This document shows positions 32,503-50,856 of a stretch of DNA of 64,000 bases, in pieces; position 1 is the stretch's first letter; each line of letters opens with the position of its first letter. The notes beneath the pieces are model-generated. The model was not told the origin of the DNA and did not search any database. It saw nothing but the letters and a program-made list of their open reading frames with translations. The stretch lies in the NCBI RefSeq assembly GCF_001719125.1, contig NZ_CP017006.1:2060384-2124383 (forward strand), given 5' to 3'. A program made the translations under genes and the position numbers. Origin of the DNA: Sulfolobus sp. A20 (GTDB lineage: Archaea > Thermoproteota > Thermoprotei_A > Sulfolobales > Sulfolobaceae).

Positions 32503-32553
32503 TCAGACAGCCGCCACAACATCACTTTCTTCAGTCCCAAAGGTCTTCATCAC
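32503..32553 (-). ncRNA. Box C/D sRNA candidate 1 (dual guide)
   Basis: Read on the minus strand: box C GTGATGA (32553-32547), a 12-nt guide AGACCTTTGGGA, box D' CTGA (32534-32531), a 5-nt spacer, box C' GTGATGT (32525-32519), a 12-nt guide TGTGGCGGCTGT, and box D CTGA (32506-32503). All four boxes are near-consensus and both guides are the canonical 12 nt. The D guide can form 11 pairs (two G-U) with the CAGCCGCCGCG of the 16S 530 loop. It directs 2'-O-methylation with L7Ae, Nop5 and fibrillarin. A TATA-like CTTTTATT lies about 25 nt upstream. Confidence 0.85.
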
Positions 32554-32915: not shown

Positions 32916-34274
32916 ATGGCTGAGATAAAAGAGATTAGAAAGCCGGTAAGGGAGAAGGCAAGTATTCACAGTCACATAAAGGGATTGGGTTTAGATGAGA
33001 ATGGGAAAGCTAAGTTCATAGCTGATGGTTTAGTCGGGCAGGCTGAGGCTAGAGAAGCAGCTGGGGTTGTAGTTCAATTAATAAAGCAAGGAAAGATGGC
33101 AGGTAAAGGAATATTATTCGTCGGTCCACCCGGAACTGGTAAAACAGCAATAGCAGTAGCCATTGCCAGAGAATTAGGGGAAGATACTCCTTTTACAGCT
33201 ATCAACGCATCGGAAATATACTCTACGGAATTAAAGAAGACAGAAATACTAACACAACTAATAAGAAAGTCTATAGGCGTTAGAATAAGGGAGAAGAGGC
33301 TGGTTTACGAAGGTGTTTTAAAGGACAGAAAAGTTAAGGTTGCTAGAAGTAGGTTAAATCCCTATTCTCAAGTCCCTGTTGAAGCCCAAATAACATTAGC
33401 TACCAAAGATGATGAAAGAACGTTGACTGTGGGAGAAGAGATAGCTCAACAATTAGTCTCTTTAGGAGTAAAGAAAGGCGATGTAATAATGATAGACGCT
33501 CAGACTGGACAAGTGATAGTACAAGGTAAAGCAAAAGGATTTGAAGGTATAAAGACTTACGATATAGAGACCTCAAGAGTTATTGAAATGCCTTCTGGTC
33601 CAGTGAGGAAAGAGAAGGAGATAACTACAACACTTACCTTGAATGATTTAGACCTAAATTTAGCAGCTAGAAACTTAGCGGTAACAGCAATATTCTCATT
33701 ATTCACAGAAAGGGAGGTAAGCGAGGATGTTAGAAAGGAAGTGGATAGGCTAGTTAAAGAATGGATAAACCAAGGAAGAGCTGAATTGGTAGTAGGTGTA
33801 TTGTTCATCGATGATGCTCATATGTTAGATTTGGAAGCCTTTTCCTTTCTCACTAGAGCGTTAGAGTCAGAATTAGCTCCTATAATAATCTTAGCTACTA
33901 ATAGAGGGATAACTAAAATAAGGGGAACTGATGTAGAGTCACCGCACGGCATACCATTAGATTTACTTGATAGACTTTTAATAATCCCGACTAGACAATA
34001 CAATGCTGAAGAAATAAAAGAAATAATTAAGATAAGAGCAGATGAACTTGAGATTGAGTTGGATCCCCAGGCTCTAGATGAGTTAACTAAAATAGGTGTA
34101 GAAAATAGTTTGAGATACGCTGTTCAATTATTAGAACCATCACAAGTAATAGCACAAAGGAATAATAGAAATGTTATAAAGGTTGACGATGTTAGAGAAG
34201 CTTCTAAGTTATTCTCTGATGTGAAGAGAAGCGTAAAGTTTGTAAAAGAGTATGAGAATCTATTATTAAAATGA
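32916..34274 (+). CDS. TIP49/RuvBL-like AAA+ ATPase
   Basis: 452 residues, colinear with eukaryotic RuvBL1/2: N-terminal [32 protein letters not shown], Walker [10 protein letters not shown], inserted OB-like domain II, Walker [11 protein letters not shown], sensor I ATNRG, and [16 protein letters not shown]. In eukaryotes RuvBL1/2 remodel chromatin and assemble box C/D snoRNPs. The catalytic Walker B Glu is Asp here (DDAH instead of DEVH). A C/D sRNA overlaps its stop codon and two others flank it. Confidence 0.93.
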
Positions 34275-34319
34275 TGTATGGTGACGGCTCTGAGGCAGTG
34301 ATGTAACTTAAAGGGCTGA
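34271..34319 (+). ncRNA. Box C/D sRNA candidate 2, overlapping the TIP49-like stop codon
   Basis: Box C ATGATGT (34271-34277) contains the TGA stop of the preceding gene. Then a 12-nt guide ATGGTGACGGCT, box D' CTGA (34290-34293), spacer GGCA, box C' GTGATGT (34298-34304), an 11-nt guide AACTTAAAGGG, and box D CTGA (34316-34319). The boxes and spacings are those of archaeal dual-guide sRNAs. There is no separate promoter, so the RNA is probably processed from the 3' end of the mRNA. Targets not identified. Confidence 0.8.
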
Positions 34320-46835: not shown

Positions 46836-47348
46836 CTATTTAATAAGTAATAAAATGTCACCTTTCTTCACACTCTGACCTTCTTTAACCATAACTTTTT
46901 GAACTATACCGGCGATAGGGGAAGAAATAACAGTTTCTGCTTTCATAGCTTCAATTGAGAGTAAAGGTTGACCTTTATTTACAGCATCACCTTCCCTCAC
47001 TCTAATCTTAACGATTCTCCCAAATAGAGGTGAAATTATCTCTCCCTCCTTTCCTCTTAAAACACTTTCTATACTTTCTCCTTCTTTAACTGGTATTTCG
47101 TTTATTCTGTCTAATCTGAGAAAGTTTTCATTAGCGAATATTAAGGTCCCATCTGATTCAACAAACACATAATAATTTTTCCCATCGATCTCAAATAGAT
47201 ATTCATTTTCCCTAGTACCTCTGCCTAAGAACTTCACTTTTACTTCCTTCTCTCCTATTTTTATATTATCTATATTTCCTTGCTGATCATAGGCTACAAC
47301 GTAAGAATCTCCCAATTCTGTATGGATTCTATAAGCCTTCATTACCAC
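46836..47348 (-). CDS. accB: Biotin carboxyl carrier protein
   Basis: 170 residues. The C-terminal biotinyl domain carries SIEAMKAE, with the biotinylated Lys at residue 136, between symmetrical half-domains (GRIVKIRVREGDAVNKGQ, GIVQKVMVKEGQSVKKGD). The longer N-terminal part (residues 1-80) is a beta-rich linker found in archaeal BCCPs. Overlaps accC by 7 nt and precedes pccB by 15 nt. Confidence 0.95.
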   Translation of the reverse strand: MVMKAYRIHTELGDSYVVAYDQQGNIDNIKIGEKEVKVKFLGRGTRENEYLFEIDGKNYYVFVESDGTLIFANENFLRLDRINEIPVKEGESIESVLRGKEGEIISPLFGRIVKIRVREGDAVNKGQPLLSIEAMKAETVISSPIAGIVQKVMVKEGQSVKKGDILLLIK

Positions 47349-48871
47349 ATCACCCTCGTATTAGATTGTAGAGCGATGCCATAAGTCTTCCATTTGTTTG
47401 GAGCCCTCTCATCTCTTATAATCTTCTTCTCTTCAGCTTTTCTCTTCAATAAACCTCTATTATATAAAGCTATAGCAATTGCTACTTTTCTTTCCTCTTC
47501 CTCAGTTAGTTTTTGCTTAAAGTATTGTATTTTCTCAGAGATATAAGCGGTAGTAAAGTTACCCTCCCAGAAGTCTGGGTCTTGTAAGATGAGCTTATAT
47601 AGGGGTATAGTAGTTTTTACACCACCTATCTTATAATCATTTAATGCTCTCAATCCAACTTGTATTGCATAGTCTCTGCTTTGACCATATACTATTAACT
47701 TAGAGACTAATGGATCATAATAAGGTGGAACCCATGTACCAACTTCAATTCCACTATCAACTCTCACGCCCGGTCCAGTAGGTTCTTTATAATATGTTAT
47801 GTAACCAGATTGTGGCGTAAATTCGTTCAAAGGATCCTCAGCATTTATTCTAAATTGAATGGCGTGTCCTCTAATTTTCAGATCCTCTTGGGAAAACGGT
47901 AAATATTCTCCAGCAGCAAGTCTAATCTGCAGTTTTACTAGATCAATACCTGTTATAAATTCGGTTACAGTGTGTTCTACTTGTACTCTTTTGTTTATTT
48001 CCAAAAAATAAAAGTCATGTGTTACTGGAGAATATACGAATTCCATAGTACCTAGGGTGAAGTAATTTATTTCCTTACCGAATCTAATCGAAGCTTCAAT
48101 AATTGTTTTTCTTTCTTCCCAGGTAATTGAGGGAGAAGGAGCTTCTTCTATCAGCTTTTGATTTCTCCTCTGAATTGTACACTCCCTTTCAAATGCTACT
48201 ACATAATTGCCATATTTATCGCCTATTAGTTGTGTCTCTATATGCTTAGGTTTTACGGCAGCTTTCTCGATATATATTTCTGCTCTACCAAAAGCTGAGT
48301 ATGATAATCTTTTGCTCCTTTCAAAAGCCTCAGCCAATTCTGCTGAATTATCAACCTTTATTATCCCTACGCCAGCTCCTCCTCCAGCAGCCTTCAGCAT
48401 TATTGGATAGCCTATTTCCTCAGCGACCTTTAAAGCCTCATCTACGCTCTCGACTGGTGTTAATGGACCAGGTGAGGTTGGAACTCCAGCCTTTCTAGCT
48501 ATCCTCTTACCATCTAGCTTGTCTTTTATTTTATCCATGACTTCTGCTGAAGGTCCTATAAAGGTTAAACCGACTTTCTCTACTTCTCTTACAAACCTTG
48601 GATTTTCGGATAAAAATCCGTAACCGGGATGTACGGCATCAGCATGAGCTTTCAATGCAGCGTCAACAATTCTATCTATGTTTAAGTAGCTCTCAAGTGC
48701 GGGTGAAGGTCCAATCCAATACGCTTCATCCGCATATTTAACGTGAGGAGCATATTTATCAGCATCTGAATAGACTGCTACAGCTTTCATTCCCATCTCT
48801 TTTACCGCTTTCATTACTCTGATTGCTATCTCTCCTCTATTGGCAACGAGAACTTTATTAAATGGGGGCAT
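47342..48871 (-). CDS. accC: Biotin carboxylase subunit of acyl-CoA carboxylase
   Basis: 509 residues. ATP-grasp motifs: KVLVANRGEIAIRVM, HPGYGFLSENPRF, the Gly-rich loop KAAGGGAGVGI, MEFVYSP, EINKRVQVEHTVTE with the catalytic Arg region, and GHAIQFRINAEDP. It carboxylates biotin on BCCP using ATP and bicarbonate. First gene of the operon; on the minus strand CTTTTAAA near 48894-48901 is a TATA candidate about 25 nt before the ATG. Confidence 0.95.
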   Translation of the reverse strand: MPPFNKVLVANRGEIAIRVMKAVKEMGMKAVAVYSDADKYAPHVKYADEAYWIGPSPALESYLNIDRIVDAALKAHADAVHPGYGFLSENPRFVREVEKVGLTFIGPSAEVMDKIKDKLDGKRIARKAGVPTSPGPLTPVESVDEALKVAEEIGYPIMLKAAGGGAGVGIIKVDNSAELAEAFERSKRLSYSAFGRAEIYIEKAAVKPKHIETQLIGDKYGNYVVAFERECTIQRRNQKLIEEAPSPSITWEERKTIIEASIRFGKEINYFTLGTMEFVYSPVTHDFYFLEINKRVQVEHTVTEFITGIDLVKLQIRLAAGEYLPFSQEDLKIRGHAIQFRINAEDPLNEFTPQSGYITYYKEPTGPGVRVDSGIEVGTWVPPYYDPLVSKLIVYGQSRDYAIQVGLRALNDYKIGGVKTTIPLYKLILQDPDFWEGNFTTAYISEKIQYFKQKLTEEEERKVAIAIALYNRGLLKRKAEEKKIIRDERAPNKWKTYGIALQSNTRVMW

Positions 48872-49156
48872 TAATAATAATAGTGTATATCGGGTTTAAA
48901 AGTTTTTAACTTTAGAATTTATCTATGTATAAAATTCTAAAAATTTTTTAATATAAAAAGTGATCAACATCAAACTTTTTATGTTAGTCCAAGGAGGGGA
49001 AGTAGAAAATATTAAGAGGAAAATTATCTCCTTATAGATTTTCTAGAAACGTACTTGAAGTAGCGTTGAAATCATGGATATCGAATCTAAATTACAAAAT
49101 AACACTCTAAACTTTATACAGAAAAATATTTAATTATCGTAAGCCACTCCATACTG
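48872..49156. other. Intergenic region upstream of accC and of the C/D sRNA
   Basis: It holds the accC TATA element (minus strand, near 48894-48901) and, at the right, AAAATATTTAATTA (about 49125-49138), about 20-30 nt before the box C of the sRNA at 49157. A stretch CCAAGGAGGGGAAGTAG at 48998-49014 resembles the GGGGAGGAAGTCAG tails of TnpB relics but is too weak to assign. No gene seen. Confidence 0.4.
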
Positions 49157-49205
49157 AGGATGACGAATCCGGGAACTGAGCAGTGAGGAAATGCGCGAAC
49201 GCTGA
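49157..49205 (+). ncRNA. Box C/D sRNA candidate 4 (dual guide)
   Basis: Box C AGGATGA (49157-49163), a 12-nt guide CGAATCCGGGAA, box D' CTGA (49176-49179), spacer GCA, box C' GTGAGGA (49183-49189), a 12-nt guide AATGCGCGAACG, box D CTGA (49202-49205). Both C boxes deviate from RTGATGA at one position, but both guides are exactly 12 nt and both D boxes perfect. The sequence is much richer in G+C than its surroundings, as expected for a structured guide RNA. A TATA-like stretch lies about 25 nt upstream. Targets not identified. Confidence 0.75.
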
Positions 49206-49239
49206 TCAATTGAAAAAGGAATTAGAAGGTAACAGATAG

Positions 49240-50852
<1,613 letters not shown>

Positions 50853-50856
<4 letters not shown>

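Follow-up and report, generated by a model that had tools for sequence, protein, structure and literature searches.

A C/D box sRNA of the sR33 family in Sulfolobus sp. A20 and a predicted tRNA T-arm target for its D' guide

A short G+C-rich stretch in the genome of Sulfolobus sp. A20 raises two questions: does it encode a genuine C/D box sRNA and, if so, which RNAs would its two guides address? The stretch (49157-49205, + strand) lies within the window, i.e., the whole 64,000 nt (64 kb) of DNA analyzed here, and reads AGGATGA-12-CTGA-3-GTGAGGA-12-CTGA, with the C, D', C' and D boxes all present. The locus displays the hallmarks of the C/D class—four boxes, guides within the range of 10-14 nt and a short D'-C' spacer. 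Its features are as follows, with congeneric conservation given for the seven genomes aligned.

49123-49134 (+): TATA-like promoter element AAAATATTTAAT, with its end 22 nt upstream of the C box
49153-49207 (+): C/D box sRNA as delimited by the match to Rfam sR33 (RF01120, 46.4 bits against a gathering score of 37)
49157-49163 (+): C box AGGATGA, same letters in 7/7 congeneric genomes
49164-49175 (+): D' guide CGAATCCGGGAA with the core GAATCCGGGA (-2 to -11); predicted pairing partner tRNA U47-C56, predicted methylation site C50
49176-49179 (+): D' box CTGA, read from the sequence
49180-49182 (+): D'-C' spacer GCA, read from the sequence
49183-49189 (+): C' box GTGAGGA, same letters in 7/7 congeneric genomes
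49190-49201 (+): D guide AATGCGCGAACG, no target found among the genome's own rRNAs and 45 tRNAs
49202-49205 (+): D box CTGA, read from the sequence

The box sequences agree with the preliminary description, which had noted a single U-to-G deviation in both C boxes: compared with RTGATGA, C and C' each depart by one T-to-G change. The G+C-rich island reported there was also recovered: G+C amounts to 55% in the RNA and 35% across the whole window, and the flanks (100 nt upstream and 34 nt downstream) each have 29%. In the ORF list of the 64-kb window (frames of at least 50 aa), none overlaps the sRNA. A scan for the four-box pattern, in which each C box could carry a single mismatch, gave three hits within the window (34271-34319, +; 32503-32553, −; and 49157-49205, +) and none in a control set of 20 sequences, each 64 kb long, simulated with a first-order Markov model. 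The site at 32503-32553 (−) is a second C/D sRNA; its first guide core pairs over 10/10 positions with the genome's own 23S rRNA at 2423, and its second guide scores 9.5 at position 476 of the 16S rRNA. The site at 34271-34319 (+) is a third, with a first guide core scoring 9.5 at position 1013 of the 16S rRNA and a second guide for which no match to the genome's own rRNA rose above the shuffles.

RF01120 (sR33) was the sole Rfam family to reach its gathering score in the 64-kb window (46.4 bits vs 37), and the weaker Rfam matches at the locus belong to other C/D families. Across the genomes of the taxonomic family, RF01120 found a match in 29 of 31, above the gathering score in seven. A sequence-only search model, built from 24 of the 29 matched rows, extended the distribution to 104 of the 229 genomes of the class, including all 31 family members; among the 73 matches outside the family, 72 fell in the same order, and one weak match (G035) lay beyond it. 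We inspected 89 loci (the 29 plus 60 further matches, two of those 60 within the family), and 87 of them have the standard D' guide spacing, the exceptions being G153, with a shortened spacing, and G179, with a diverged guide. The D' core reads GAATCCGGGA in 86 of these 87 homologs and GAACTCGGGA in the remaining one (G004)—counts that are biased toward the guide, as the search models themselves weight it. Positions -12 and -1 of the D' guide vary among the homologs, leaving an invariant block of exactly 10 nt. A pattern scan of the named genomes, in which GAACC and a G at -6 were also allowed, gave ten stretches. Seven are archaeal, all reading GAATCC (Metallosphaera, Aramenus, Sulfolobus, Fervidicoccus, Sulfolobales and Desulfurococcaceae); the three bacterial ones look like chance occurrences. 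With its boxes, guides and spacers as originally described, an Rfam match and family-wide homologs, the locus is a real, conserved and ordinary archaeal C/D box sRNA, an orthologue and new member of the known sR33 family.

The genomic surroundings of the sRNA bear on how it would be expressed. The TATA-like element upstream, already pointed out in the preliminary description, is the only upstream stretch conserved in the seven congeneric genomes aligned, where it stands amid diverged DNA about 22 nt before the C box. Because of this footprint, we infer that the sRNA has a promoter of its own in this genus and is transcribed from it. It sits between two genes on the minus strand (47342-48871 and 49240-50856), one accC-like and the other encoding a permease, and is opposite in strand to both neighbors in all seven congeneric genomes. 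The locus had been called isolated; what we found is a conserved slot between the permease gene and the accC-like gene. In other genera, where these genes were found, the permease gene lies upstream (16 genomes) and the accC-like gene downstream (13 genomes), each on the same strand as the sRNA. Given the opposed orientation in the genus vs the co-orientation elsewhere, the sRNA was thus inverted in place, or re-made, with its own promoter, in the ancestor of the genus. In four homologous loci (L049-L052, from G027-G030), inspected by eye, the permease frame reaches the sRNA, and its stop appears to fall inside the C box, with one TGA serving as stop codon and box alike. The overlap of a gene stop with the C box is an arrangement described for many archaeal C/D sRNAs in PMC7994747.

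To what would the D' guide pair? The guide core (-2 to -11) was compared with the genome's own 23S, 16S and 5S rRNA and 45 tRNAs, with scores out of 10. The best match was to the tRNA T-arm, UCCCGGGUUC, with a score of 9.5. Pairing over the whole core (10/10) was found with the T-arm of 18 of the 45 tRNAs, 16 with one G-U pair and two with two; the other 27 do not pair over the entire core. Among 5000 shuffled guides, 29 reached the best tRNA score and none matched as many tRNAs. Against the genome's own rRNA, no D' match exceeded chance, the best score of 8.5 being equaled by 1581 of 5000 shuffles (0.31). The four guides of the two other sRNAs in the window served as method controls: three reach 9.5 or 10 against rRNA, with shuffle fractions of 0.05, 0.005 and 0.075, and the remaining one does not (0.74). 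The exact complement of the D' core occurs at two sites in the genome, both of which were rejected as targets: one is the opposite strand of the sRNA gene, and the other lies, as judged by eye, on the antisense strand of an apparent coding stretch.

C/D-directed 2'-O-methylation is positioned by the N+5 rule, as set out in PMC4644070, and under this rule the predicted methylated nucleotide is tRNA C50, where the D' guide combines complementarity with a Watson-Crick pair at N+5. The freedom of positions -1 and -12 fits this register, with -1 facing the variable tRNA position 46 and -12 facing position 57 (A or G). The duplex contains a G-U pair in every paired tRNA. It falls short of the nine consecutive Watson-Crick pairs that Dennis 2015 generally required, and is within the limit used for scanning there, i.e., one mismatch and two G-U pairs. 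Taken from sequence complementarity, the D' guide most likely directs methylation at C50 of many tRNAs, a testable target. A paper search for Cm50 in Sulfolobus tRNA found none among the papers covered.

The recurrent wobble deserves attention of its own. The D' guide of G004 reads CGAACTCGGGAA, with the G-U pair moved from G53 to G52, and pairs fully with 15 of the 28 G004 tRNAs scored (30 of 45 loci were fetched, two of them without the loop pattern)—the same number as the common guide would. The common and G004 guides are each one C-to-U step away from the exact complement, which holds the palindrome CCCGGG. In energy models, self-pairing of the exact complement amounts to -13.7 kcal/mol and that of the two real guides to -9.3 and -7.7 kcal/mol; the wobble costs 2.6 to 3.0 kcal/mol in tRNA pairing. 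Because the exact complement self-pairs more strongly in these models, the constant U at -8 (the U-G53 wobble) may be kept to avoid self-pairing of the sRNA, an idea drawn from energy models and one variant genome (G004).

The D guide gave a different picture. No target above chance was found for it in the genome's own 23S, 16S and 5S rRNA or 45 tRNAs (best rRNA score of 8.0, shuffle fraction of 0.84). Summed over ten distinct homologous cores, its rRNA score was 6.85, a value reached by 66% of 500 permutations, and the summed cores had no above-chance target in the tRNAs either. We rejected rRNA targets for both guides, since their scores lie within the shuffle range (0.31 and 0.84), and the double-guide rRNA arrangement, with both guides on 16S/23S, is not seen here. 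The label "dual-guide" given in the preliminary description consequently holds for the D' guide, which has an above-chance target in tRNA rather than in 16S/23S rRNA, but not for the D guide; the guide search against rRNA and tRNA proposed there was answered by the tRNA T-arm for the D' guide and by no rRNA target, with nothing for the D guide. Among the D guides of the 29 family homologs, a core near GCGCGARC recurs in many genera. The D guide probably either goes unused or addresses an RNA outside the rRNA/tRNA set scanned, and the conservation of its core may reflect service to such an RNA. In sRNAs directed at tRNA, as characterized in PMC7994747, one guide acts on tRNA and the other lacks a target, a pattern that the targetless D guide fits.

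Several other explanations of these data were weighed. That the locus is a chance arrangement of boxes, or a decayed and silent sRNA gene, might be suspected from two C boxes that are each one base off the consensus. Yet these same variants and both guides (the first base of the D guide aside) are kept in 7/7 congeneric genomes while the flanks have diverged, the TATA-like element is kept upstream in the same seven, the four-box scan came up empty in the simulated windows and the Rfam model recognizes the RNA; we thus find such an origin scarcely credible. The sRNA might instead serve chiefly as an RNA chaperone, keeping the T-arm open while the tRNA folds and directing methylation only as a secondary activity. 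A D' guide that covers the T-stem strand and half of the T-loop would suit this role, and archaeal C/D sRNAs have been proposed to act as chaperones (PMC4644070). Nevertheless, the -5 pair and the D' spacing, which methylation needs, are kept in 87/87 guides counted (a count that leaves out two of the 89 inspected loci, G153 and G179), and we consider a primarily chaperone function quite improbable.

A more specific challenge comes from 5S rRNA, in which Cm32 was reported for S. acidocaldarius and S. solfataricus (PMC2584109). If 5S rRNA alone were the target of the D' guide, the N+5 nucleotide would be the third C of CACCCGGACTC, corresponding to C32 on the assumption that 5S starts with GCCC or GTCC. 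The guide scores 8.0 of 10 at this site, a value equaled by 0.075% of 12000 distinct permutations, and U(-8) forms a Watson-Crick pair with 5S A35. In addition, a dedicated 5S guide, GAGTCCGGGNNCYGA, was sought as a candidate and found in 0/31 family genomes; of the 17 sites in the Sulfolobus sp. A20 genome with up to three mismatches from a perfect 5S guide, only the one in this sRNA has a C box upstream (by eye). Against this stand the two mismatches (-2 and -9) that interrupt the eight of ten pairs around C32 and are never repaired among the homologs, and a tRNA pairing that is both longer and stronger (-18.6 vs -14.6 kcal/mol). Furthermore, the 5S stretch around C32 is constant in 26 of 30 5S genes and altered in the other four (L105 of G004, L114 of G010, L113 of G011 and L102 of G021). 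The site reads CACCCGGTCTC in G010 and G011, which nevertheless keep the guide, and in G004 it is altered while the variant guide still pairs with tRNAs. We therefore judge 5S rRNA very unlikely to be the sole target; a paper search for a guide sRNA for C32 of Sulfolobus 5S rRNA found none among the papers covered. The guide could also serve two RNAs, with full T-arm pairing (Cm50) and weaker pairing at 5S C32, and U(-8) would then be a compromise: the near-invariant base would form G-U with tRNA G53 and Watson-Crick with 5S A35. We hold this shared use to be improbable, if still worth considering.

We regard it as likely that the locus is an sR33 orthologue with its own promoter, in which the D' guide directs 2'-O-methylation to tRNA C50 and the D guide probably goes unused or addresses another RNA. 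From the boxes, homology, guide conservation and above-chance complementarity observed here, we infer transcription, RNP assembly and methylation along the following route. In this genus, transcription would start from the sRNA's own promoter, and the transcript would, by analogy, assemble with L7Ae, Nop5 and fibrillarin, an assembly established for the C/D sRNA class. Positions -2 to -11 of the D' guide would then pair with U47-C56 of tRNAs bearing a UCCCGG-type T-arm, and, by the N+5 placement, C50 in the T-stem would receive the 2'-O-methyl group. In an RNA class known for rapid turnover of its guides, a guide conserved nearly letter for letter among relatives gains a testable target here. 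The D' guide also becomes a candidate guide for Cm32 of 5S rRNA; in other respects the result amounts to routine small-RNA gene annotation.

Set beside known systems, the sRNA resembles sR33 of RF01120 over the full length of the model (1-55 of 55), with the same boxes and two similar guides; it differs in having AGGATGA and GTGAGGA where sR33 has UGAUGA forms, and in individual guide letters. The suggestion that C/D sRNAs act on position 50 of the tRNA T-arm has been made before (PMC7912444, citing Omer 2000 and Lui 2018), and both the tRNA position and the mechanism are the same as those proposed here, a comparison made through the sentence of that review rather than sRNA by sRNA. The Pyrobaculum guide sRNA for Cm56, mentioned in PMC7912444, is likewise a C/D guide directed at the T-arm. 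In contrast to it, the N+5 nucleotide in Sulfolobus sp. A20 is C50, and C56 merely marks the far end of the duplex.
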